Below are positions 42,721-53,467 of a DNA stretch of 64,000 nt, piece by piece. The position numbers and the translations under genes are program-made. The stretch lies in assembly GCF_040024445.1 (NCBI RefSeq), contig NZ_CP157276.1:2232001-2296000 (forward strand), written 5' to 3'. Below the pieces are notes generated by a model that worked only from the letters and a program-made list of their open reading frames with translations, was not told the origin of the DNA and did no database searches. This DNA comes from Prescottella soli. Lineage in GTDB: Bacteria > Actinomycetota > Actinomycetes > Mycobacteriales > Mycobacteriaceae. Position 1 is the first letter of the stretch, and each line of letters starts with the position of its first letter.

Positions 42721-44232
42721 TCAGTTGTTCTGGGGGAAGCCGAGGTTGATGCCGCCGTGGCTGGGGTCGAGCCAGCGGGTCGTGACGACCTTGCCGCGGG
42801 TGAAGAAGTGGACGCCCTCGGTGCCGTGGGCGTGGGTGTCACCGAACAGCGAGCTCTTCCACCCACCGAAGCTGTAGTAGGCCATCGGAACCGGGATCGG
42901 GACGTTGATGCCGACCATGCCGACCTCCACCTCGTTCTGGAAGCGGCGCGCCGCCCCACCGTCGTTGGTGAAGATCGCGGTGCCGTTGCCGAACGGGTTC
43001 GAGTTCACCAGCGCGAGCGCCTCGTCGTAGGACTCCACGCGGACGACCGACAGCACGGGGCCGAAGATCTCGTCGGTGTAGACACTCATGTCCGGGGTGA
43101 CGTGGTCGAGCATGGTGGGCCCGAGCCAGAAGCCGTCCGCTCCCCCGTCCGCCTCGATGCCGCGCCCGTCCACCACGACGGTGGCGCCGGCGGCCTCGCC
43201 CGCGTCGACGTACGACGCGACACGGTCTCGGTGGGCCTTGGTCACCAGCGGGCCCATGTCCGCGTCGCGCGTCCCGTCGCCGGTCTTGAGCGCCCGGGTG
43301 CGCTCGGCGATCTTGTCGACCAACTCGTCCGCGATGTCGCCGACCGCAACCATCACGGAGATCGCCATGCAGCGCTCACCTGCGGACCCGAAACCGGCGT
43401 TCACCATGGCGTCCGCGGCCAGATCGAGGTCCGCGTCGGGGAGCACGATGGCGTGGTTCTTCGCGCCGCCCAGCGCCTGGACCCGCTTGCCGTGGGCGGT
43501 GCCGGTGGCGTACACGTACTGGGCGATCGGCGTCGAACCGACGAACGAGATCGCCTTGATGTCCGGGGAGGTGAGCAACTCGTCGACCGCGGTCTTGTCG
43601 CCCTGCAGCACGTTGAACACGCCTGCGGGCAGGCCGGCCTCGGCCCACAGCTCCGCCATCCAGATCGACGCCGTCGGATCCTTCTCGGACGGCTTGAGGA
43701 CGACCGTGTTGCCGGTCGCGACGGCGACCGGGAAGAACCACATCGGGACCATGGCCGGGAAGTTGAACGGGGAGATGATCGCGACCGGGCCGACCGGCTG
43801 CCGGATCGAGGCGACGTCGACGGACGTCGACGCGTTCTCGGTCATGCCGCCCTTGAGCAGATGCGCGATGCCGCAGGCGAATTCGACGACCTCCTGACCG
43901 CGCGACACTTCACCGAGCGCGTCGGAGAGCACCTTGCCGTGCTCGGCCGTGATGATATCGGCCAGTTCCTGCTTGCGCTCGTTGAGCAGTTCGCGGAACT
44001 TGAACAGCACAGCGGTGCGCTTGGCCAGCGAGCTGTCCCGCCACGCCGGGAACGCCGCCGACGCCGCCGCGATCACCGTCCGGGCGTCCTCGACACTCGC
44101 CAGTGCGACCTGGCCGGTGACCGCGCCGGTCGCCGGGTTGGTGACGGGGGCGGTGTTGCCGCTCGTTCCGGCAAAGCCCTTGCCGTCGGACCAGTGCGCG
44201 ATCGTCCGTGCCGCGCCGTCACTGTGGGTCAT
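42721..44232 (-). CDS. mmsA: Methylmalonate/malonate-semialdehyde dehydrogenase (CoA-acylating)
   Basis: This 503-residue aldehyde dehydrogenase of the MmsA/IolA group has the diagnostic catalytic motif GSAGERCMAIS, ISPFNFPAMVPMWFFPVA and SFVGSTPIAQYVYATG. It turns malonate semialdehyde into acetyl-CoA and CO2, or methylmalonate semialdehyde into propionyl-CoA. No other valine or inositol genes are adjacent, whereas an omega-aminotransferase follows, so beta-alanine breakdown is favoured. It is divergent from a PucR gene with an inverted repeat between. Confidence 0.92.
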   Translation of the reverse strand: MTHSDGAARTIAHWSDGKGFAGTSGNTAPVTNPATGAVTGQVALASVEDARTVIAAASAAFPAWRDSSLAKRTAVLFKFRELLNERKQELADIITAEHGKVLSDALGEVSRGQEVVEFACGIAHLLKGGMTENASTSVDVASIRQPVGPVAIISPFNFPAMVPMWFFPVAVATGNTVVLKPSEKDPTASIWMAELWAEAGLPAGVFNVLQGDKTAVDELLTSPDIKAISFVGSTPIAQYVYATGTAHGKRVQALGGAKNHAIVLPDADLDLAADAMVNAGFGSAGERCMAISVMVAVGDIADELVDKIAERTRALKTGDGTRDADMGPLVTKAHRDRVASYVDAGEAAGATVVVDGRGIEADGGADGFWLGPTMLDHVTPDMSVYTDEIFGPVLSVVRVESYDEALALVNSNPFGNGTAIFTNDGGAARRFQNEVEVGMVGINVPIPVPMAYYSFGGWKSSLFGDTHAHGTEGVHFFTRGKVVTTRWLDPSHGGINLGFPQNN

Positions 44233-44320
44233 GGGAGTCCTTAACTGAGTCGATCGACACGCGCGATCACGCGTAGTGCCTCAACTCTGGCCGTCCGCCC
44301 CACCACCGCAGGGCTGCACT

Positions 44321-44350
44321 GTGTAAAAGGATCGGACTTCTGATTTACAC
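44321..44350. promoter_or_regulatory. Inverted repeat between mmsA and PucR2
   Basis: Arms GTGTAAA (44321-44327) and TTTACAC (44344-44350) are perfect with a 16-base spacer. The position, 9 bases before pucR2 and 89 bases before mmsA, suits control of both genes by PucR2. Confidence 0.55.
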
Positions 44351-44358
44351 TTCGTCAA

Positions 44359-45999
44359 ATGCAGCCGACCGTCCGCGAGATCCTCGCCCTCCCGGTCCTC
44401 CAGCACGGCGAGCCGGAGGTGATCGGCGGCGGCACCCTCGACCGCCGGGTCCGGTGGGTGCACGTGAGCGATCTGCGGGACCTGTCGAACCTGCTCCAGG
44501 GCGGCGAGCTCGTCCTGACGACGGGACACGCCCTCACCGATGATCCTGTGGGTTACCTGGAGGGCCTGGCCGCCGCCGGGGCGACCGGCCTCGTCGTCGA
44601 ACTCGGACTGCACGTCGACGCGATCCCGCCGGAGGCGGCCGAGGCCGCGGACCGGCTCGGGCTGCCGGTGGTGGCCCTCCACCGGGAGGTCCGGTTCGTC
44701 GAGGTCACCGAGGAGGTGCACCGCTCGATCGTGGCCGACCAGTATGCCGAGGTGGCGTTCGCCCGCAACACCCACGAGGCGTTCACCGACCTGAGCATGA
44801 AGCGGGCGTCGCCCGGCGAGATCGTCGAAGCCGCAGCGGCGATACTCGGAGCACCGATCGTCCTCGAGGATCTGGCGCGGCAGGTCCTCGCCTTCGCATC
44901 GCAGGGCCTCGAGACCGCGGAACTGCTGTCGGACTGGGAACGCCGGTCGCGGCTGACGCCGGTCGCGCGCGAGACGGGGATCGGCGGACCGGAATCCTGG
45001 ATCACCACACCGGTGGGCGCCCACCGGCAGGAATGGGGCCGGCTCGTCGTCCCCCGCCCGACCGGCAACGACACCCGAACCCGCATGACCATCGAACGCG
45101 CCGCCCAGGCACTCGCGCTGGGGCGCATGGCGGAGCGTGAGGGCACCGCCCTCCAACAGCAGGCCCAGAGCGGCCTCATCGACGAGCTGCGCCGCGGTCG
45201 CATCCAGGACGAGGCCGAGGCGACCGCCCGCGCACACGCCCTCGGGTTGCGACCCGCGCTGACATACCTGCCGCTCACCATTCGCGTTGCTGAGACCCCC
45301 AGCGCCGACCAGGTTTTCACGCAGCGGCGACGGGTCCGCATGCTCGACGCCATCCGTCACGCCGTGCGGACGTCGCGGTTGACGGCGCTCACCACCAATC
45401 CGCGGGCCGGCTGGTTCGACCTGCTGATCTCACAGCCCCCGGGCGGTTCCGGACCCGACGCCCTGCAGCCGCTGTGCGCCGAGATCCACGCCGCGCTCGG
45501 GCGGATCGACGGCGTCGTGCGCTGCACCGTCGGCGTCGGCCCGGACTCGACCCGGCTGCTGGACGCCGCGCGCGGTCTCACCGAATCGGCCCACATCGCC
45601 GACGTGGCACAGTCGTTGCCGCGGGACGGCAGGTTCTGCCACCGCTCCGCGGACATCCGGTTGCGCGGGCTGATCGCGCTCATCCGCACGGATCAGCGTG
45701 TGCAGGCCTTCGCCGAAGCCGAACTGCGCGGCCTGCTCGAGCACCGGGCACGGCACGGCGACGACCTGCTGGACCTCCTGCGCGCCTACCTCGAACTCGG
45801 CGGCAACAAGGCCGAACTCGCCAAGCGGATGCGGATCTCGCGCCCCACGCTGTACGCCAAGCTCGCGACCGTCGAACGTCTCCTCGGAGTGGACCTGGAC
45901 GACGCCGAGTCCCGGACGTCGCTGCACACGGCCGTGCTGATCCTCGACAGTCATTCGAGCGCGCCCGCGGAGGAGGCGGGGGCAGCGCCCGGGACCTGA
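44359..45999 (+). CDS. PucR-family transcriptional regulator (divergent from mmsA)
   Basis: This 546-residue regulator has an N-terminal PurC-like domain (residues about 5-125, with LLQGGELVLTTGHAL) and a C-terminal HTH_30 (LRAYLELGGNKAELAKRMRISRPTLYAKLATVE; about residues 480-515). It is a paralogue of the PucR beside gabT. It is divergent from mmsA-aminotransferase and so a probable activator of the beta-alanine arm. A strong hairpin follows the gene. Confidence 0.88.
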   Translation: MQPTVREILALPVLQHGEPEVIGGGTLDRRVRWVHVSDLRDLSNLLQGGELVLTTGHALTDDPVGYLEGLAAAGATGLVVELGLHVDAIPPEAAEAADRLGLPVVALHREVRFVEVTEEVHRSIVADQYAEVAFARNTHEAFTDLSMKRASPGEIVEAAAAILGAPIVLEDLARQVLAFASQGLETAELLSDWERRSRLTPVARETGIGGPESWITTPVGAHRQEWGRLVVPRPTGNDTRTRMTIERAAQALALGRMAEREGTALQQQAQSGLIDELRRGRIQDEAEATARAHALGLRPALTYLPLTIRVAETPSADQVFTQRRRVRMLDAIRHAVRTSRLTALTTNPRAGWFDLLISQPPGGSGPDALQPLCAEIHAALGRIDGVVRCTVGVGPDSTRLLDAARGLTESAHIADVAQSLPRDGRFCHRSADIRLRGLIALIRTDQRVQAFAEAELRGLLEHRARHGDDLLDLLRAYLELGGNKAELAKRMRISRPTLYAKLATVERLLGVDLDDAESRTSLHTAVLILDSHSSAPAEEAGAAPGT

Positions 46000-46073: not shown

Positions 46074-46454
46074 TCAGTGGTCGTGCACGACCGCGGCCGC
46101 GGGATCCGGTTGCTCCGGCGATCCCGTCGTCGCACGGTTGCCCAGTTCGATCAGCACGACACCGGCGATGATCAGTGCGATACCCCCGATTGCCGTGACG
46201 GACAACGACTCCCGGAACAGCAGAACTCCCAGGACCGCCACCGCCGTCGTTCCGACCGCGGACCAGATGGCGTAGCCGACGCCGACATCCAGACCGCGCT
46301 GGAGAGCGAAGCCGAGCAGAGCGAACGCCGTGGCGTAGCCGATCACGACGATCACCGACGGCAGCAGCCGGCTGAAACCGTCGGCGGCCTTGAGGGACAG
46401 CGTCGCAACGATCTCACACGCGATTGCGCCGGCCAGGAGTCCGTAAGCGCTCAT
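46074..46454 (-). CDS. Small multidrug resistance (SMR/EmrE-like) exporter
   Basis: This 126-residue protein has four hydrophobic helices and the essential membrane glutamate at residue 14 (AIACEIVATLSLKAADGF), which also supports the ATG 46454 start over a GTG one codon earlier. SMR dimers exchange protons for cations such as quaternary amines, guanidinium or, in MdtJI, spermidine. Its start overlaps the stop of the amine permease by one base (TGATG), so the pair are translationally coupled; export of polyamines or amines is an inference from that. Confidence 0.88.
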   Translation of the reverse strand: MSAYGLLAGAIACEIVATLSLKAADGFSRLLPSVIVVIGYATAFALLGFALQRGLDVGVGYAIWSAVGTTAVAVLGVLLFRESLSVTAIGGIALIIAGVVLIELGNRATTGSPEQPDPAAAVVHDH

Positions 46455-47869
46455 CACCCCACCTGTTCGGGAACGGATCGACGGTCCTGAACCTTACGCC
46501 GGTAGAGCCACAGCACGACCGCAGCCGCCAGTACGCCGAACGCCACCGACAGCTCCTTGAAGCCGCCGTACCCCGTGACCTCGAATCCCGTGGCGCCCAC
46601 GACGAGAATGACGGCGAGCACTGCCGAGAGCACCAGCGACAGCGGAACGAACATCGCCGGCAGACGAATCGGACGGGCCAGGTCGGGGCGGTCCTTGCGC
46701 AGCAGGAAGAAGCCCGACAGCGCGAAGATGTGGGTCAGGATGTAGCCCAGGTTGCCCGTGACGATGATCGCGAGCGGCGTCTTGAGCACGGTCAGGACCA
46801 GGACGTTGACCACCAGCGCCACGGTGAGCGCCCGGACGGGAACGCCCCTCTTGTTCAGCACACCGAACTGCCGCAGACTCGTCCCCTCCTTGCCCATGTT
46901 GTAGAGAACGCGCGAGCCGTCGGCGAGACCGGTCACCATGATCAGCAGCAGCGAGCAGATCAGGAACAGCACCATGACGTCGGCCGCGCCGCCGACCAGG
47001 TTCTGGAAGGCCTCGACGTAGAACGTGGTGGGCGCGTCGGCAATCACGCCCTCGCCGACGTACCCCGTCAGGATGAGCGGCAGCAGCACGAAGACGCCGA
47101 GCGAGAACAGGACGCCCGCCTTGAGGGCCTTGGCCGTGTCGGAGACGGTGTTGCGGTACTCCGGTGCGAACGTCGCGCAGACCTCGACGCCGAACGACGT
47201 CCACGCCATCACGTACAGCCACACCAGCGCGGTGCGCAGCCCTTCGACGCCGTGCAGGTTCCAGGTGAGCGCGGAGACGTCGAAGCCGTTGGCCAGCAGC
47301 GGTCCGACGATGAACACCGCGAGCGGGATGAGCAGGATGCCGCCCGTGATGTACACGAACGTCATGGTGATGCGGACGCCGACGACGTTGAGCAGGTAGA
47401 GAATTCCGATCACACTGAGGCCGACCACGATCGGGAAGTTCAGCTCGATCGGTCCCAGCTCCCACGACCAGTCCTGATCCGGGAACCACTGCGATTGGAC
47501 GAGGGCGCCGATGATGCCGGCGTAGACGGACAACGATGTGGTCCACGGGAACCAGTACCCGACGGCGGCGAGCGGTCCGACGATCGGCGCACGCTTCTTC
47601 CACGCCTCGGCGGCGTAAGCCGCGATACCGCCCGACGACTCCGGGAACATCGCGGCGAGTTCGGTGTAGATCCAGTTCGCCCCGGTCGCGAGGAGCATCG
47701 AGACGCTCCACAGGAGCACTGCGCCCCATCCGCCGAGGCCGACGATCGAGGCGCCGAGCGAGGCGATCAGCGCGGCCGGCATCGTCAGCGACATCGCGAA
47801 GCCGTCGTACCAGCGCATCGTCTTGTGCAGTTCGGTGGAGGTCTGTTCGGTGGACGTTGTTTCGGCCAT
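46454..47869 (-). CDS. APC-superfamily amino acid/polyamine permease
   Basis: This 471-residue protein has about twelve hydrophobic segments. It has the APC N-terminal signature (LTMPAALIASLGASIVGLGGWGAVL) near residues 28-52, of which only the pattern is cited, and FPESSGGIAAYAAEAWKK in the second helix loop. The start was placed at ATG 47869 (MAETTSTEQ). It is a secondary importer at the cytoplasmic membrane; its place between the GABA/beta-alanine modules and the amine oxidase suggests an amine or omega-amino acid substrate. A diverged copy of the shared operator lies 54-71 bases upstream. Confidence 0.87.
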   Translation of the reverse strand: MAETTSTEQTSTELHKTMRWYDGFAMSLTMPAALIASLGASIVGLGGWGAVLLWSVSMLLATGANWIYTELAAMFPESSGGIAAYAAEAWKKRAPIVGPLAAVGYWFPWTTSLSVYAGIIGALVQSQWFPDQDWSWELGPIELNFPIVVGLSVIGILYLLNVVGVRITMTFVYITGGILLIPLAVFIVGPLLANGFDVSALTWNLHGVEGLRTALVWLYVMAWTSFGVEVCATFAPEYRNTVSDTAKALKAGVLFSLGVFVLLPLILTGYVGEGVIADAPTTFYVEAFQNLVGGAADVMVLFLICSLLLIMVTGLADGSRVLYNMGKEGTSLRQFGVLNKRGVPVRALTVALVVNVLVLTVLKTPLAIIVTGNLGYILTHIFALSGFFLLRKDRPDLARPIRLPAMFVPLSLVLSAVLAVILVVGATGFEVTGYGGFKELSVAFGVLAAAVVLWLYRRKVQDRRSVPEQVG

Positions 47870-47922
47870 GGCATTCCTAAGTCCCGTTGGGGGGCGCCAC
47901 GGGGGCACCCGGATATGACGGT

Positions 47923-47940
47923 GACTCGGACGGAACAGTG
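47923..47940. promoter_or_regulatory. Diverged third copy of the amine operator
   Basis: GACTCGGACGGAACAGTG matches about 15 of 18 positions of the operator at 48226-48243 (CACTCG-ACGGAA-CGAGTG), with one base less in the right half. It lies in the permease leader. The 440-base gap 47870-48309 otherwise holds only the amine oxidase promoter. Confidence 0.45.
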
Positions 47941-48191
47941 CGGAATCGACCCCCGCGGCAAGGGGATCGAACCCATCGACCCCGGAATGCGGACCCCGAC
48001 GACGTCGATGCGGCGGACGAAGTATGGATCACGCCGCGAGCGATGACAAGCCCCGACGGGTGCCGGAGGAGACCTGCCCGCGCCGCGTGAGGTTGCGCGG
48101 AACCATCTCGCCAACATTGACGATGCAGAAACGAAACCGCTCAGGATGTTGCTCAAATGACAAACATCGGCGGTGATTTCTGCTCATCGGC

Positions 48192-48243
48192 GTGACAGGG
48201 GCTCGCCGAGTCGATATCGTGACCGCACTCGACGGAACGAGTG
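48192..48243 (+). promoter_or_regulatory. Promoter and operator of the amine oxidase gene
   Basis: GTGACA (48192-48197), a 17-base spacer and TATCGT (48215-48220) look like -35 and -10 elements. The inverted repeat CACTCG-ACGGAA-CGAGTG (48226-48243) follows at the expected transcription start, which suits repression. Nearly the same array occurs at 49914-49966. Confidence 0.7.
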
Positions 48244-48309
48244 ACCTGCACCACATCCACGGCGTTGGCAGCGCCACATCACACGACACGCGTCGCAGGA
48301 GAAACCCAG

Positions 48310-49713
48310 GTGAATCCAGTCAACGGTCCAGACATCCAACTGACGCGGCGCCGCCTGCTCGGCTACGGCGGCGCCGTCGGCCTCTCGGCGCTCCTCTTCG
48401 CCGGCACCCCGCAGGCCCGGGCACAGACGGGATCGGTCGGATCGCTCGGATCCCCCGACTCGAATCACGCGGACGTGATCGTCCTCGGCGCCGGCGTGTC
48501 CGGCCTGGGCGCGGCGCGCACGGTCGCCGACGCAGGCAGATCGGTGATCGTCCTCGAGGCCCGCGATCGGATCGGCGGCCGGCTCTGGACGGACCGCACG
48601 ACCATGGGCATCCCGGTCGAGCGGGGCGCCGAACTCATCCACGGTGCCGACGTGTCCACCTGGGACATCGTCGGCCCGGCGAACATCTCGACACATCGGT
48701 GGGGGACCAAGATGTCCCGATTCGATCCGTCCACGCCGTGGGTCGACCAGGACACCTGGCAGTTCTACAACTTCCCGCAGGGAAAGCCGGGCGTACCGAC
48801 ACCGCTCCCGGCCCCGAACCCCGGCGAGACCGCAGAGCAGTACCTCGGGCGGCTGGGCATCTCTCGGGCGAACTACCCGCTCGCCTTCCTGGTCATCGAG
48901 GTGGACAGCGAGCAGTCCGACAAGCTTCCCGCCGAGGACGTGGTCGAGGCACTCGAGACCGCGCTGACGGCCCCGGACAGCGGGCCGATCCCGAGTGACG
49001 GGTACGGGGATTTCCGCGTGATCGGCGGCTACGACCAGGTCGTCCGGATTCTCGCCGAGGGAATCGACGTGCGGACGAATCACGAGGTCGCCCGCGTCGC
49101 TCACTCTCGTCACGGCGTGGAGGTGCTGGCGAACGGCACCCGGTTCACCGCCCGCAAGCTCGTGATCGCACTGCCCGCAGGCGTGCTGCAACAGGAGTCG
49201 ATCGCGTTCGACCCGCCGCTACCTTCGACGCAGCGTTCCCGGATCTCCGAGGTGGTCTACCTTCCCGTCTACAAGGGCCTGCTGGAGTTCTCCGCTCCGG
49301 TTCTGCCGGACGGATGGGACCTCGCAGAGGATTACCTGGTCAACCCGCCGACGTTGTGGAACGGGTCGGCCGCGGCGCCCGGCTACGCGGGGCAGGTCGT
49401 CGTCGCCTGGGCGACCGGAGACGAGGCCCGGGAACTGCTGGCGGCGACGGAGGCCGAGCGCCTCGCCCAGTCGCTGGAGGCGGTCCGATCGATGGCCGGC
49501 GACGCGGGGCTGACAACTGTGGCCACGTCGACCTACGACTGGTCCCTCGACGAGTTCGCGCGGGGCGCCTACCCGGGGCCGACCTCGCGCCGCGAGGGGT
49601 TGTACGACCCCATTCAGCGGACCGTGTTCTGGGCGGGCATGGTCACCAGCACCGTCAGCTCGTCCCTCGACTCGGGCCGCACCGCCGGTACCGCAGCCCT
49701 GGGGGCGCTGTGA
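48310..49713 (+). CDS. Tat-exported flavin monoamine/polyamine oxidase
   Basis: This 467-residue protein begins with a twin-arginine signal (TRRRLLGYGG, then a hydrophobic stretch ending ARAQ at about residue 38). A flavin amine oxidase fold follows, with the dinucleotide motif VIVLGAGVSGLGAAR, EARDRIGGRLW and a C-terminal FWAGMVTSTVSSSLDSGRTAG segment at the flavin. It oxidises an amine to aldehyde, H2O2 and ammonia or amine. Export with bound FAD through Tat would place this reaction outside the cell. The start GTG 48310 follows GGAGA. It shares its promoter type with the aldehyde dehydrogenase at 50025. Confidence 0.87.
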   Translation: MNPVNGPDIQLTRRRLLGYGGAVGLSALLFAGTPQARAQTGSVGSLGSPDSNHADVIVLGAGVSGLGAARTVADAGRSVIVLEARDRIGGRLWTDRTTMGIPVERGAELIHGADVSTWDIVGPANISTHRWGTKMSRFDPSTPWVDQDTWQFYNFPQGKPGVPTPLPAPNPGETAEQYLGRLGISRANYPLAFLVIEVDSEQSDKLPAEDVVEALETALTAPDSGPIPSDGYGDFRVIGGYDQVVRILAEGIDVRTNHEVARVAHSRHGVEVLANGTRFTARKLVIALPAGVLQQESIAFDPPLPSTQRSRISEVVYLPVYKGLLEFSAPVLPDGWDLAEDYLVNPPTLWNGSAAAPGYAGQVVVAWATGDEARELLAATEAERLAQSLEAVRSMAGDAGLTTVATSTYDWSLDEFARGAYPGPTSRREGLYDPIQRTVFWAGMVTSTVSSSLDSGRTAGTAALGAL

Positions 49714-49736
49714 GCCCCCGGAAAGGACCGCGCGCC

Positions 49737-49880
49737 ATGGCGATGCAGCGCCATCCACCGGCAGCCCGGCACTCCGATCGATCCGGGGACGACCTGTCGT
49801 CGCACGATCTCGCGCTGGTGATCGAAGCGTTGACCGGCGAACGACTTGAGCCAAAATCTGACACAACTTCTGCTCATTGA
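49737..49880 (+). CDS. Hypothetical 47-residue protein
   Basis: ATG 49737 lies nine bases after AAAGGA and the frame runs 47 codons to TGA 49878-49880. It directly follows the amine oxidase gene (23-base gap). The product is hydrophilic (LSSHDLALVIEALTGERLEP) with one short helix-like stretch and no recognised family. Its end runs into the upstream region of the next promoter. It could be a small cotranscribed protein or a chance frame. Confidence 0.4.
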   Translation: MAMQRHPPAARHSDRSGDDLSSHDLALVIEALTGERLEPKSDTTSAH

Positions 49881-49913
49881 ACAGTTTCTAAGCTCAAATT
49901 CTGCCCATAGGGG

Positions 49914-49966
49914 GTGACATGGGCCACGATTGCCGTTATCGTGGCCACACTCGCACGGAACGAGTG
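49914..49966 (+). promoter_or_regulatory. Promoter and operator of the aldehyde dehydrogenase operon
   Basis: GTGACA (49914-49919), a 17-base spacer, TATCGT (49937-49942) and CACTCG-CACGGAA-CGAGTG (49948-49966) repeat the array found before the amine oxidase gene, including the flanking TTCTGCYCAT upstream. Just upstream, 49868-49908 holds repeated TTCTGCTCAT / TTCTAAGCTCA / TTCTGCCCAT half-sites that could be Lrp/AsnC contacts. Confidence 0.7.
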
Positions 49967-50024
49967 ATCCCCAGCACAGCCACCGAGGGCATCGGCAGCC
50001 CTACCCACACCAAGAGGGTTTCTC

Positions 50025-51485
50025 ATGACGACATCCATCCCGACCGCCCCGCGCCAGCAGCTCTACGTGGACGGCGCGTACACCGACGGCAGCACCGGCG
50101 AGTCCGTCGAGGTGATCAGCCCGGTCACCGGTGGCCACATCGGCACCATCCCGGTCCCCTCCACCGCGGACCTCGACAAGGCCGTCGACGCCGCCCATCG
50201 GGCCCAGGCCGAGTGGCGCAAGGTGGGCGTGTGGCAGCGCGCCGAGATCTGCCACCGCATCGGCGACGAACTCGAGAAGCGGATCGACTTCCTGGCCCGC
50301 CTGCAGACCCTCGAGCAGGGCAAGCCCCTCGCCGAGTCCATCGCCGACGTGACCGAGGCCGCGCAGCTGTTCCACCTGCACGCCGAGGACGCGGTCCGCC
50401 TGCACGGCGAAACCCTGCCCTCGAACGATCCGCAGAAGCGGATGTGGACCTTCTACCGGCCGGTCGGCGTCTGGGGCATCATCACGCCCTGGAACTTCCC
50501 GCTGCTGATGCTCACCGAGTTCGTCGCTCCGGGCCTGGCGACCGGCAACGCCCACGTCGTCAAGCCGCCGACCCACACCTCGCTGACCGTGCTGGCCGCG
50601 ATGGAGGCGTTCGAGGCGGCAGGCCTGCCGGCCGGTCTCGTGAACATCCTTCCGGGAGAGGGCAACTTCGGTGCCGACCTGGTCTCGCATCCGGGCATCG
50701 ACGCCATCGGCTTCATCGGTTCGTCGCAGACCGGCGCGAAGATCCAGGCGACCGCCGGCCTGAAGCGGTCCATCATGGAGTGCTCGGGCAACGGCCCGCT
50801 CATCGTGCTCGCCGACGCCAACGTCGAGGCCGCGGCCAAGGCGGCCGCCGACGCCGCGTACTACTGCGCGGGTCAGGTCTGCTGCGCCACCGAGCGCGCA
50901 CTGGTGCACGCCGACGTGCACGACGCATTCGTCGAGGCACTCGTCGCGTACTCCGGCTCGGTCAAGCTCGGCGATCCGTTCGACTCCGCGGTCAACCTCG
51001 GTCCGCTCAACAACGAGGGTGTCGCCGCGAAGATGGACCGGCACCTGGCCGACGCCCGCGAGCGCGGCTTCGACGTCCTGGTCGGCGGCGGCCGCCGCGA
51101 GGGATTCCCGACCGACCTGTACTACGACTTCACGGTCGTCGACGGCGTCACCCCCGACAGCCTCCTCAGCAAGGAGGAGTCGTTCGGCCCGGTCGTGCCG
51201 ATCATCACGGGCCGCGACGACGACGAACTTCTCCGCCTGGCCAACAGCGACGCGCTCGGCCTCCAGGCTGCGGTCTTCACCGAAAGCCTCACCAAGGCTT
51301 ACCGATTCGTCGAGGAGGTGGAGACCGGACAGGTGATCGTCAACGACAGCACCGGATTCTGGGACATCAACATGCCGTTCGGCGGCGCGGGCGGCAAGGG
51401 CACCGGGTGGGGCCGGATCGGCGGCAAGCACACGCTGATCGACATGTCCGACCTGCGCACCGGTGTCATGCACCTGGGCCGCTGA
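50025..51485 (+). CDS. Aldehyde dehydrogenase (aminoaldehyde-type candidate)
   Basis: This 486-residue NAD(P)-dependent aldehyde dehydrogenase has ITPWNFPLLML, an active-site Glu in MECSGNGPLIVLAD and catalytic Cys in AGQVCCATERAL. It is the first gene of an operon with an amine-oxidising flavoprotein, an AsnC regulator, a cupin and a second aldehyde dehydrogenase. Its promoter matches that of the amine oxidase, so its substrate is probably an aldehyde released by amine oxidation, such as 3-aminopropanal. That assignment is inferred from context only. Confidence 0.87.
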   Translation: MTTSIPTAPRQQLYVDGAYTDGSTGESVEVISPVTGGHIGTIPVPSTADLDKAVDAAHRAQAEWRKVGVWQRAEICHRIGDELEKRIDFLARLQTLEQGKPLAESIADVTEAAQLFHLHAEDAVRLHGETLPSNDPQKRMWTFYRPVGVWGIITPWNFPLLMLTEFVAPGLATGNAHVVKPPTHTSLTVLAAMEAFEAAGLPAGLVNILPGEGNFGADLVSHPGIDAIGFIGSSQTGAKIQATAGLKRSIMECSGNGPLIVLADANVEAAAKAAADAAYYCAGQVCCATERALVHADVHDAFVEALVAYSGSVKLGDPFDSAVNLGPLNNEGVAAKMDRHLADARERGFDVLVGGGRREGFPTDLYYDFTVVDGVTPDSLLSKEESFGPVVPIITGRDDDELLRLANSDALGLQAAVFTESLTKAYRFVEEVETGQVIVNDSTGFWDINMPFGGAGGKGTGWGRIGGKHTLIDMSDLRTGVMHLGR

Positions 51486-51523: not shown

Positions 51524-52921
51524 ATGCCCACCACCAGCCCGTCGACGATCGACGGGGTGCACCGCTCCCCGTACTGGTTCGACGTGACGCCGGCCCCGAC
51601 GCCGCGCCCGGCGCTCGCGACGACGCTGTCCGCCGACCTGCTGGTGGTGGGCGGAGGCTATACCGGCCTGTGGACCGCGCTCATGGCCAAGGAATCGGAA
51701 CCCGATCTGCGCGTGGTGCTCCTCGAGGGCCACACCATCGGGCACGCCGCAAGCGGCCGCAACGGCGGCTTCTGCTCCCCGAGCATCACTCACGGCCTCA
51801 TGAACGGCGTGAACCGCTGGCCGAACGAGGCCGCGGCCATGCACCGGATGGGGCTCGACAATCTCGCCGGAATCGAGGAGTCCCTCGAGCGCTACGCCAT
51901 CGACGCCGACTACCGACGGCCGGGCAAGGTCAGCTTCGCCCGGACCACCTGGGAACTCGAGGGTCTGCGCGCCTACTCCGAGATGAGTGGGCGCTACGGC
52001 GAGACGTCGCGGTTCATCCCGCCGTCGGAGGTCGGCGACTGGACCGCGTCGCCCGTCTACGTCGGCGGCCTGTACCTGCCCGACTACGCGCTGGTCGATC
52101 CGTACAAGCTCGTGCTCGGCCTGCGGCAGGCATGCCTCGACCTCGGCATCGAGATCCACGAGAACACCGCGGTCACGTCGATCGGCAAGACGTCCGGCGA
52201 GCGCATCGCCGCGACCACACCGCGCGGCCGGGTCGAGGCGAAGCGAGTTGCACTGGCCACCAACGCCTTCGAGCCACTACTGCGCCGCCTCACGAACACG
52301 ACCATCCCGGTCTACGACTACGCGCTCGTCACCGAGCCGCTGAGCGACGCCGACCTCGAGTCCATCGGGTGGACGCAGGACTTCGGTCTCACCGACGCCG
52401 GCAACCAGTTCCACTACTACCGCAAGACCGCGGACAACCGGATCCTGTGGGGCGGCTACGACGCGATCTACCACTACGGCTCCCGACGCGACGAAGAACT
52501 GCTCGACCGACCGGAGACCTACGCGCGGCTCGCGGCGAACTTCGCCGCGACGTATCCCCAGCTGGCCCACGTGCGGTTCACCCACGGGTGGGGCGGCATG
52601 ATCGACTCGTCGACGCGGTTCTGCCTCACCGCCGGCTCGGCGTACGGCGGACGCGTCGCGTACGCCACGGGTTTCACCGGCCTGGGCGTCACCGCGACCC
52701 GCTTCGGCGCACAGGTGATGCTCGACCGTCTGGCGGGACGCCGGACGGAGCGCACGGAACTGGCGATGATTCGGCGGCCGGCGGTGCCGTTTCCCCCGGA
52801 ACCGGTGCGTTACTTTGGTGTCCAGGCAACCAGATGGTCGCTGGCCCGGGAGGACGACCACGGTCGCCGCAACCTGTGGTTGCGACTCCTCGACAGCATC
52901 GGACTGGGATTCGATTCCTAG
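51524..52921 (+). CDS. FAD-dependent amine/amino acid oxidoreductase (DAO/PuuB-like)
   Basis: This 465-residue DAO-family flavoprotein has the FAD motif LLVVGGGYTGLWTALMAK at about residue 40, GHAASGRNGGFCSPS (typical of gamma-glutamylputrescine oxidase-like enzymes) and the C-terminal YATGFTGLGVTATRFGAQ. It oxidises a C-N bond with oxygen. ATG 51524 follows AAAGG, 38 bases after the aldehyde dehydrogenase stop. No glutamylpolyamine synthetase gene is in view, so the substrate may be a free amine rather than a glutamylated one. Confidence 0.85.
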   Translation: MPTTSPSTIDGVHRSPYWFDVTPAPTPRPALATTLSADLLVVGGGYTGLWTALMAKESEPDLRVVLLEGHTIGHAASGRNGGFCSPSITHGLMNGVNRWPNEAAAMHRMGLDNLAGIEESLERYAIDADYRRPGKVSFARTTWELEGLRAYSEMSGRYGETSRFIPPSEVGDWTASPVYVGGLYLPDYALVDPYKLVLGLRQACLDLGIEIHENTAVTSIGKTSGERIAATTPRGRVEAKRVALATNAFEPLLRRLTNTTIPVYDYALVTEPLSDADLESIGWTQDFGLTDAGNQFHYYRKTADNRILWGGYDAIYHYGSRRDEELLDRPETYARLAANFAATYPQLAHVRFTHGWGGMIDSSTRFCLTAGSAYGGRVAYATGFTGLGVTATRFGAQVMLDRLAGRRTERTELAMIRRPAVPFPPEPVRYFGVQATRWSLAREDDHGRRNLWLRLLDSIGLGFDS

Positions 52922-52948: not shown

Positions 52949-53467
52949 TTGAACACACCGAGCATCGACGCGATCGACGCACGGATCATCGAGCTCCTGC
53001 AGAAGGACGGTCGACTCCCGTACCGGCAGATCGCAGAGGAGCTCGACATTCCCCCGTCGTCGGCGCGATACCGCGTGCAGCGACTCGAGGACGCCGGGAT
53101 CCTGCAGATCGTCGGGATCGCCAACCCGATGCGAATCGGCTTCGACCGCATGGCGATCGTCGGCATCCACACCCGCGCGGGCACCGCACGCTCGGTGTGC
53201 CAGGCGGTGGCGGCACTGCCCCAGACCAGCTACGTGATCGTCACGTCCGGGCGGTACGACGTCATCGTCGAGGTGATCTGCAAGGACACCGAGGACTTCA
53301 CCCGCCTGATGCACGACCAGCTGCACGCCATCGACGGCGTGCTCTCCACGGAGTCGTTCTTCGTCCTCGAAGTGGGGAAGTTGGCGTACGGCTGGGGAGT
53401 CGGCAACCCGCCGATGCTCCACGAGGTCGTCTCTGCGGAGAACGCATCGGTCGAGCCCGACGAGTGA
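52949..53467 (+). CDS. Lrp/AsnC-family transcriptional regulator
   Basis: This 172-residue protein has an N-terminal AsnC helix-turn-helix (ARIIELLQKDGRLPYRQIAEEL, positions about 10-31; signature PPSSARYRVQRLEDAG) and a C-terminal RAM ligand domain. The start is TTG 52949 after GGAGGA, an unusual start codon that may keep expression low. It lies 27 bases after the flavoprotein gene and is the only regulator inside the amine operon, so it is the prime candidate for the shared operators and half-sites. Confidence 0.85.
   Translation: MNTPSIDAIDARIIELLQKDGRLPYRQIAEELDIPPSSARYRVQRLEDAGILQIVGIANPMRIGFDRMAIVGIHTRAGTARSVCQAVAALPQTSYVIVTSGRYDVIVEVICKDTEDFTRLMHDQLHAIDGVLSTESFFVLEVGKLAYGWGVGNPPMLHEVVSAENASVEPDE

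Follow-up and report, generated by a model that had tools for sequence, protein, structure and literature searches.

The genes for a flavin amine oxidase (AO) and an aldehyde dehydrogenase (ALDH) in a predicted amine-catabolic cluster of Prescottella soli are preceded by the same promoter array, and the two arrays are probably copies of one promoter cassette. The model that we favor, with about an even chance of being right as a whole, joins a duplicated cassette, activation by a PucR-type regulator, and an element at the predicted transcription start (+1) that would provide a second layer of control. The window analysed here (the whole stretch of 64,000 nucleotides from contig NZ_CP157276.1) is part of a 5.48-Mb single-contig genome of the genus Prescottella; judged by its predicted products, the region from position 44359 onward is an amine-catabolic cluster encoding a PucR-type regulator, an SMR exporter, a permease, the flavin amine oxidase, the ALDH, a DAO-type oxidase, an AsnC/Lrp regulator, a cupin, and a second ALDH:

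44359..45999, forward strand: PucR-type regulator gene, candidate activator, with PucR, GGDEF_2 and HTH_30 domains (PF07905 9e-34, PF13556 2e-15; orthologue in 4/4 cassette genomes)
46074-46457: SMR exporter of the Qac/EmrE type (match scoring below curated cut-offs), directly behind the permease
46454..47866, reverse strand: amino acid/amine permease gene with ATG start (PF13520); the listed open reading frame extends to a GTG at 47908
48310..49713, forward strand: flavin amine oxidase (AO) gene with GTG start (PF01593 3e-49) and a twin-arginine motif (by eye)
50025..51485, forward strand: aldehyde dehydrogenase (ALDH) gene, heading the ALDH-oxidase-AsnC run (PF00171)
51524..52921, forward strand: FAD-dependent oxidoreductase gene of the DAO family (PF01266)
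52949..53467, forward strand: AsnC/Lrp-family regulator gene, second candidate regulator (domain match; orthologue search)

The position of the SMR exporter behind the permease is also kept in genomes G003, G007, and G033. As originally predicted, the same array was located at 48192-48243 and 49914-49966; it consists of GTGACA-N17-TATCGT, followed by CACTCG-(A or CA)CGGAA-CGAGTG:

48192..48220, forward strand: AO promoter, -35 GTGACA, 17 bp, -10 TATCGT (sequence and promoter scan)
48226..48243, forward strand: AO +1 palindrome or hairpin 1 (H1), CACTCG-ACGGAA-CGAGTG (pattern match, folding)
49914..49942, forward strand: ALDH promoter, -35 GTGACA, 17 bp, -10 TATCGT (sequence and promoter scan)
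49948..49966, forward strand: ALDH +1 palindrome or H1, CACTCG-CACGGAA-CGAGTG, with a 7-nt centre (pattern match, folding)

The likeness of the two arrays is beyond chance, as had also been claimed: the pattern CACTCGN{4,9}CGAGTG has two occurrences in the window where shuffles predict 0.13, and 0/100 shuffles had two. Genome-wide, the bare palindrome was found at 10 places (3 for a reversed-pattern control), and a search for the palindrome preceded by TATCGT, proposed with the original prediction, matched these two arrays only (control 0). Both -35/-10 pairs were found independently in a promoter scan of 47700-50100, with 9/12 matches each, among a total of four promoters where 0.2 were expected; the remaining two are the permease promoter and a promoter-like site at 49830-49857. 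H1 is the same, except for an optional C, in all eight copies from two genera; the leader behind it falls to 28/45 identity between any two promoters, and over the stretch between -110 and -36 the pairwise promoter identity lies between 34/74 and 56/73. By these comparisons, the +1 block is evidently under strong selection. The base preceding the predicted +1 A differs in the genome of the second genus (G033), where the outer C-G pair is gone.

The clearest candidate regulator sites lie upstream of the -35 boxes. The motif TTCTGCYCAT, originally noted ahead of each promoter, is present; that description was incomplete in that the motif is one of two sites spaced 31 bp apart:

48147..48156, forward strand: distal activator-like site of the AO promoter, TGTTGCTCAA (motif and pair search)
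48178..48187, forward strand: proximal activator-like site of the AO promoter, TTCTGCTCAT, 31 bp from the distal site (motif and pair search)
49868..49877, forward strand: distal activator-like site of the ALDH promoter, TTCTGCTCAT (motif and pair search)
49899..49908, forward strand: proximal activator-like site of the ALDH promoter, TTCTGCCCAT, 31 bp from the distal site (motif and pair search)

Such TTTTGCTCAT-like sites occur twice per promoter, exactly 31 bp apart, at 6/6 Prescottella promoters (three genomes with two promoters each), and in all six the nearer site is 14-15 bp upstream of -35. A search of the whole window for same-strand TTTTGCTCAT-like pairs (spacing 20-44, at most 3 mismatches per site and 4 summed) returned only two, both with the 31-bp spacing and both ahead of these promoters. 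In G033, the nearer site is within 3 mismatches in both promoters and the distal site is beyond 3 in both. By eye only, distal sites seem partly palindromic, for example TTGCTCA-N-TGAACAA at the ALDH promoter. The PucR-type regulator has orthologues of 77-97% identity in the three other cassette genomes, the weaker matches (30-38%) being further matches in G003, and the same search of seven non-cassette genomes gave no match at E<=1e-20 in any of the seven. One ALDH copy of G033 starts directly downstream of PucR. The tandem upstream pairs point to activation by PucR (44359) rather than to AsnC alone; PucR appears to be the better-placed regulator, AsnC is still a candidate, and activation of both promoters by PucR is, in our judgment, quite probable.

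According to excerpts of a study of the PucR-type regulator GabR of Corynebacterium glutamicum, GabR binds two 21-bp inverted repeats, located between -87 and -23 and adjoining -35, in a promoter with a GlxR site downstream of +1 (PMC7652997). The Prescottella cluster is like the GabR/gabTDP system, as described there, in that a PucR-family gene is found beside amine-compound catabolic genes, two predicted sites lie immediately upstream of -35, and a permease and an aldehyde dehydrogenase are among the regulon members; it is unlike the system of these excerpts in having two promoters with a 31-bp pair, and a conserved palindrome and hairpin at +1 (PMC7652997). Layout and co-occurrence thus suggest that the upstream part resembles a GabR-type promoter in the way it works.

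In the favored model, a PucR-type activator, most likely the 44359 product, would bind the two sites just upstream of -35, whose 31-bp distance corresponds to about three helical turns, and, in the presence of an amine-derived inducer, would bring RNA polymerase to GTGACA-17-TATCGT. The predicted first base of the transcript is the A of ACTCG; both messages would then open with the conserved block ACTCG(C)ACGGAACGAGTGA as their initial 18-19 nt, with a GGCA-loop hairpin behind it. This +1 element would add the second layer of control, with about equal likelihood as a DNA site or as RNA, through paired, fixed-loop hairpins of the transcript. The result would be a compact, testable regulon, with one PucR protein, two promoters that share a phased pair of sites, and a +1 block found in two genera; with the paired site as a rule, PucR targets could also be searched for in Prescottella-like actinobacteria.

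For the +1 block, the original prediction had proposed a repressor site: the palindromes and a weaker third copy at 47923-47940 would be operators, perhaps of AsnC (52949), whose occupancy blocks transcription until an inducer is available. We regard this as a real possibility that falls short of an even chance. The palindrome does sit at the predicted +1, and the third copy is real and better than weak, yet it is oriented antisense to the permease gene, and in the second genus the right arm is lacking:

47923..47965, forward strand: third copy, antisense to the permease, GACTCGGACGGAACAGTG, then a hairpin CCCC-CGCGGCAA-GGGG at 47950-47965 (pattern match, second-genus comparison)
48021..48049, reverse strand: predicted permease promoter TTGTCA-17-CATACT (promoter scan)

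With the permease promoter predicted at this position, the antisense element falls within the permease leader. The window has exactly three error-free matches to ACTCG-N0/1-ACGGAAC, one of them being ACTCGGACGGAAC of the third copy at 47924; reversed and scrambled controls had zero matches. The permease leaders of the three Prescottella genomes and G033 share an identical 19-mer, ACGGTGACTCGGACGGAAC, and both genera have a GGCA hairpin behind it (CCCC/GGGG vs. GCCCT/AGGGC). This antisense copy, kept in two genera irrespective of orientation, speaks for a DNA site, in which case a second regulator would be layered on a PucR promoter. AsnC has orthologues in 4/4 cassette genomes (85-96% identity in the three others), and in G033 one ALDH copy ends directly ahead of the AsnC gene; as with Lrp/AsnC local regulators, an AsnC-type gene is part of the same gene run and is kept with the cassette. 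However, a simple dimer operator is disfavored: the constant half-site spacing that is expected of a dimeric repressor operator is absent, with arms 6 bp apart in the AO copies and 7 bp apart in the ALDH copies, and the asymmetric centre ACGGAA is conserved, unlike the sites of Lrp/AsnC local regulators. The third copy retains the left arm and the centre only, with the right palindrome arm absent in G033, and the hairpins behind the palindromes are left unexplained. AsnC is tied to the site by adjacency and co-occurrence only, its gene is not behind the DAO-type oxidase in G033, and its binding here is putative.

These hairpins, missing from the original description of the array, are the second part of the element; behind each palindrome, every leader has a second hairpin (H2) with GGCA in its loop and a stem that differs from copy to copy:

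48261..48275, forward strand: AO hairpin 2, GGCG(T)-TGGCA-GCGCC (folding, stem scoring)
49986..50002, forward strand: ALDH hairpin 2, AGGGC-ATCGGCA-GCCCT (folding, stem scoring)

Five versions of H2 were scored (Prescottella AO and ALDH, G033 ALDH, and the permease of both genera), and taken together they are above chance; their summed stem score was reached by 1/20,000 flank shuffles, and a random draw of five among the window's 701 GGCA sites reaches it at a frequency of 0.0027. The single shuffle frequencies are 0.008 for AO, 0.003 for ALDH, 0.040 and 0.034 for the permease, and 0.126 for the G033 ALDH hairpin, which by itself is not significant. Each H2 alone is weak, since among 460 [CT]GGCA sites of the window, scored under slightly wider loop limits, approximately 6-18% reach the five H2 scores.

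The two hairpins could instead constitute a cis-acting RNA element, in which a 5'-terminal fixed-loop hairpin and the second hairpin are bound by a protein or a ligand, or protect the 5' end; we consider this reading of the +1 block credible, if somewhat improbable, and it would amount to a new leader element. It is consistent with conservation that starts at the predicted +1 A, with a loop of 6 or 7 nt that RNA easily accommodates, and with GGCA remaining constant while the H2 stems differ and the spacing between the parts varies (the H1-H2 linker is 17 nt in AO and 19 nt in ALDH). RNA, or else an unusual protein site, is favored by the two lengths of the centre (6 and 7 nt), by its fixed asymmetry, and by the presence of a second hairpin. 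Yet the seven-row alignment contains no covariation in H1, whose 5 pairs never vary, and no H2 pair that changed on both sides, the H2 stems differing by register and not by clean pair swaps; the folding stability of the leaders is ordinary (z 0.03 and 0.42), and the antisense third copy in the permease leader is not explained by a cis-acting RNA element. An Rfam 15 covariance-model search produced nothing near any gathering score; the only matches overlapping the elements were chance-level, minus-strand ones, namely tRNA-Sec (E 3.3) and mir-2518 (E 3.4), both overlapping the permease copy, and EBER1 (E 9.6), overlapping the ALDH leader. The lowest E of all was that of RsmV (0.0033; 23 bits, with a gathering score of 100), whose match is within the ALDH gene.

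An ANTAR-target RNA was considered and rejected. Excerpts of PMC8164766 describe such RNAs as two hairpins with hexanucleotide loops bearing A1 and G4, joined by a linker of 2-25 nt; the leaders are like these actinobacterial targets in having two hairpins, a 17-19 nt linker, and, in AO H1, a loop ACGGAA with A1 and G4. The sense-leader loops of the window are ACGGAA, which fits, CACGGAA, TTGGCAG or TGGCA, and ATCGGCA; only one of the four is an A1/G4 hexaloop as described in these excerpts, and neither hairpin 2 qualifies (PMC8164766).

It is unlikely, although conceivable, that the bipartite element (the 5'-terminal ACGGAA-loop hairpin and the GGCA-loop hairpin) represents an undescribed leader element common to all three transcription units of one amine regulon, which would be read in the enzyme transcripts and, in complementary form, in the permease leader, and would tie uptake and breakdown together after transcription begins; a literature search found no description of the leader element. 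Pairing in trans, in which the AO and ALDH leader RNAs would pair loop to loop with the antisense copy of the permease and thereby tie uptake to catabolism, is very improbable: complements of both loop sequences are present in the permease leader of both genera, single mismatches aside, but the predicted duplexes are no better than shuffled ones (62/300 and 40/300 shuffles were as low), and the complementarity comes free from an inverted DNA site.

The view that this is a small dedicated regulon is well supported by the occurrence of the full cassette at these promoters only, and by the co-occurrence of the cassette with PucR and AsnC. Orthologues of both regulators were found together with the cassette in 4/11 genomes tested and in 0/7 of the others; for AsnC, six of these seven had no match at E<=1e-20, and the seventh (G004) had a 35% match only, which was excluded as an orthologue. 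A second AsnC match in G003 is also at 35%. In its form as an RNA model (R1), the leader element gave 8 matches of 69-85 bits in 4/401 family genomes (G000, G003, G007, and G033), followed by a next best score of 26.7 bits, and among 394 class genomes, which overlap with the family set, only the window's own genome scored high. The best other class match (G527, 27.8 bits, CTCGCACGGAACGAG) has an outer G-C for A-U that would be compensatory if real; it was judged to be chance because it falls within a long open frame and lacks an aligned hairpin 2. An exact-pattern search matched 7 of 301 family genomes, and by eye the three beyond the cassette genomes (G298, G244, and G158) have no cassette promoter. 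A looser bipartite pattern returned 9 rows in the four cassette genomes, 8 of them in the cluster; the ninth, elsewhere in G007 (2479946) and without a right arm, was judged to be chance, and this pattern is a poor counter because the AO and ALDH copies of the window itself escaped it. The plasmids searched had no leader match, and relatives of the DAO-type oxidase on them were below 60% only.

The amine oxidase was matched at E 1e-60 in 3/14 genus genomes, including the window's own (G000, G003, and G007), and the ALDH, at a strict cut-off of 1e-190 in 345 class genomes, in the own genome only; a search of six second-genus genomes gave no ALDH at 1e-150, probably because contig ends cut the ALDH copies of G033. 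Outside the four cassette genomes, more distant oxidase relatives occur in 30/251 family genomes. Stretches of approximately 8 kb around 15 of these 30 contained no permease or amine oxidase match; ALDH50 matches near them were at 27-34% only, and the regulators in these 15 neighborhoods were one PucR at 42% and four Lrp at 32-36%.

The gene order in G033 suggests how unrelated genes came to share the cassette. There, the divergent neighbor of the permease is an ALDH start, with the element ahead of it, and a second ALDH start, the one behind PucR, carries an identical leader (+20 to +65 identical, 47/47); contigs break within the repeated ALDH gene at loci L122 and L123. The DAO-type oxidase follows the end of a different ALDH copy than the AsnC gene does, and an amine oxidase, 54% identical, is found within the permease-SMR run. 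Since the Prescottella amine oxidase occupies the position held by ALDH in G033, we infer a duplication of the promoter-leader cassette, which has since come to serve a different gene. Duplication does not account for the constancy of the +1 block amid drifting surroundings; descent alone, with a duplicated promoter and leader and a +1 block without regulatory role, would fit the duplicated G033 leader and the exchanged gene position, but is hardly credible given AO and ALDH leaders that diverged elsewhere while the +1 block stayed constant, the optional C aside, in 8/8 copies from two genera.

Two minor observations concern pucR. Genome G003 (Prescottella defluvii CP121458.1) belongs to the same genus and has the same locus as the window, with pucR in two overlapping pieces in different frames and an amine oxidase with an internal stop; sequencing error is likely, since the completeness of this genome is 79%. 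In the gap between PucR and a divergent semialdehyde dehydrogenase gene in the window (44225-44362), an inverted repeat GTGTAAA ... TTTACAC with a long gap was noted by eye; it differs from the cassette motifs and is perhaps a different operator.
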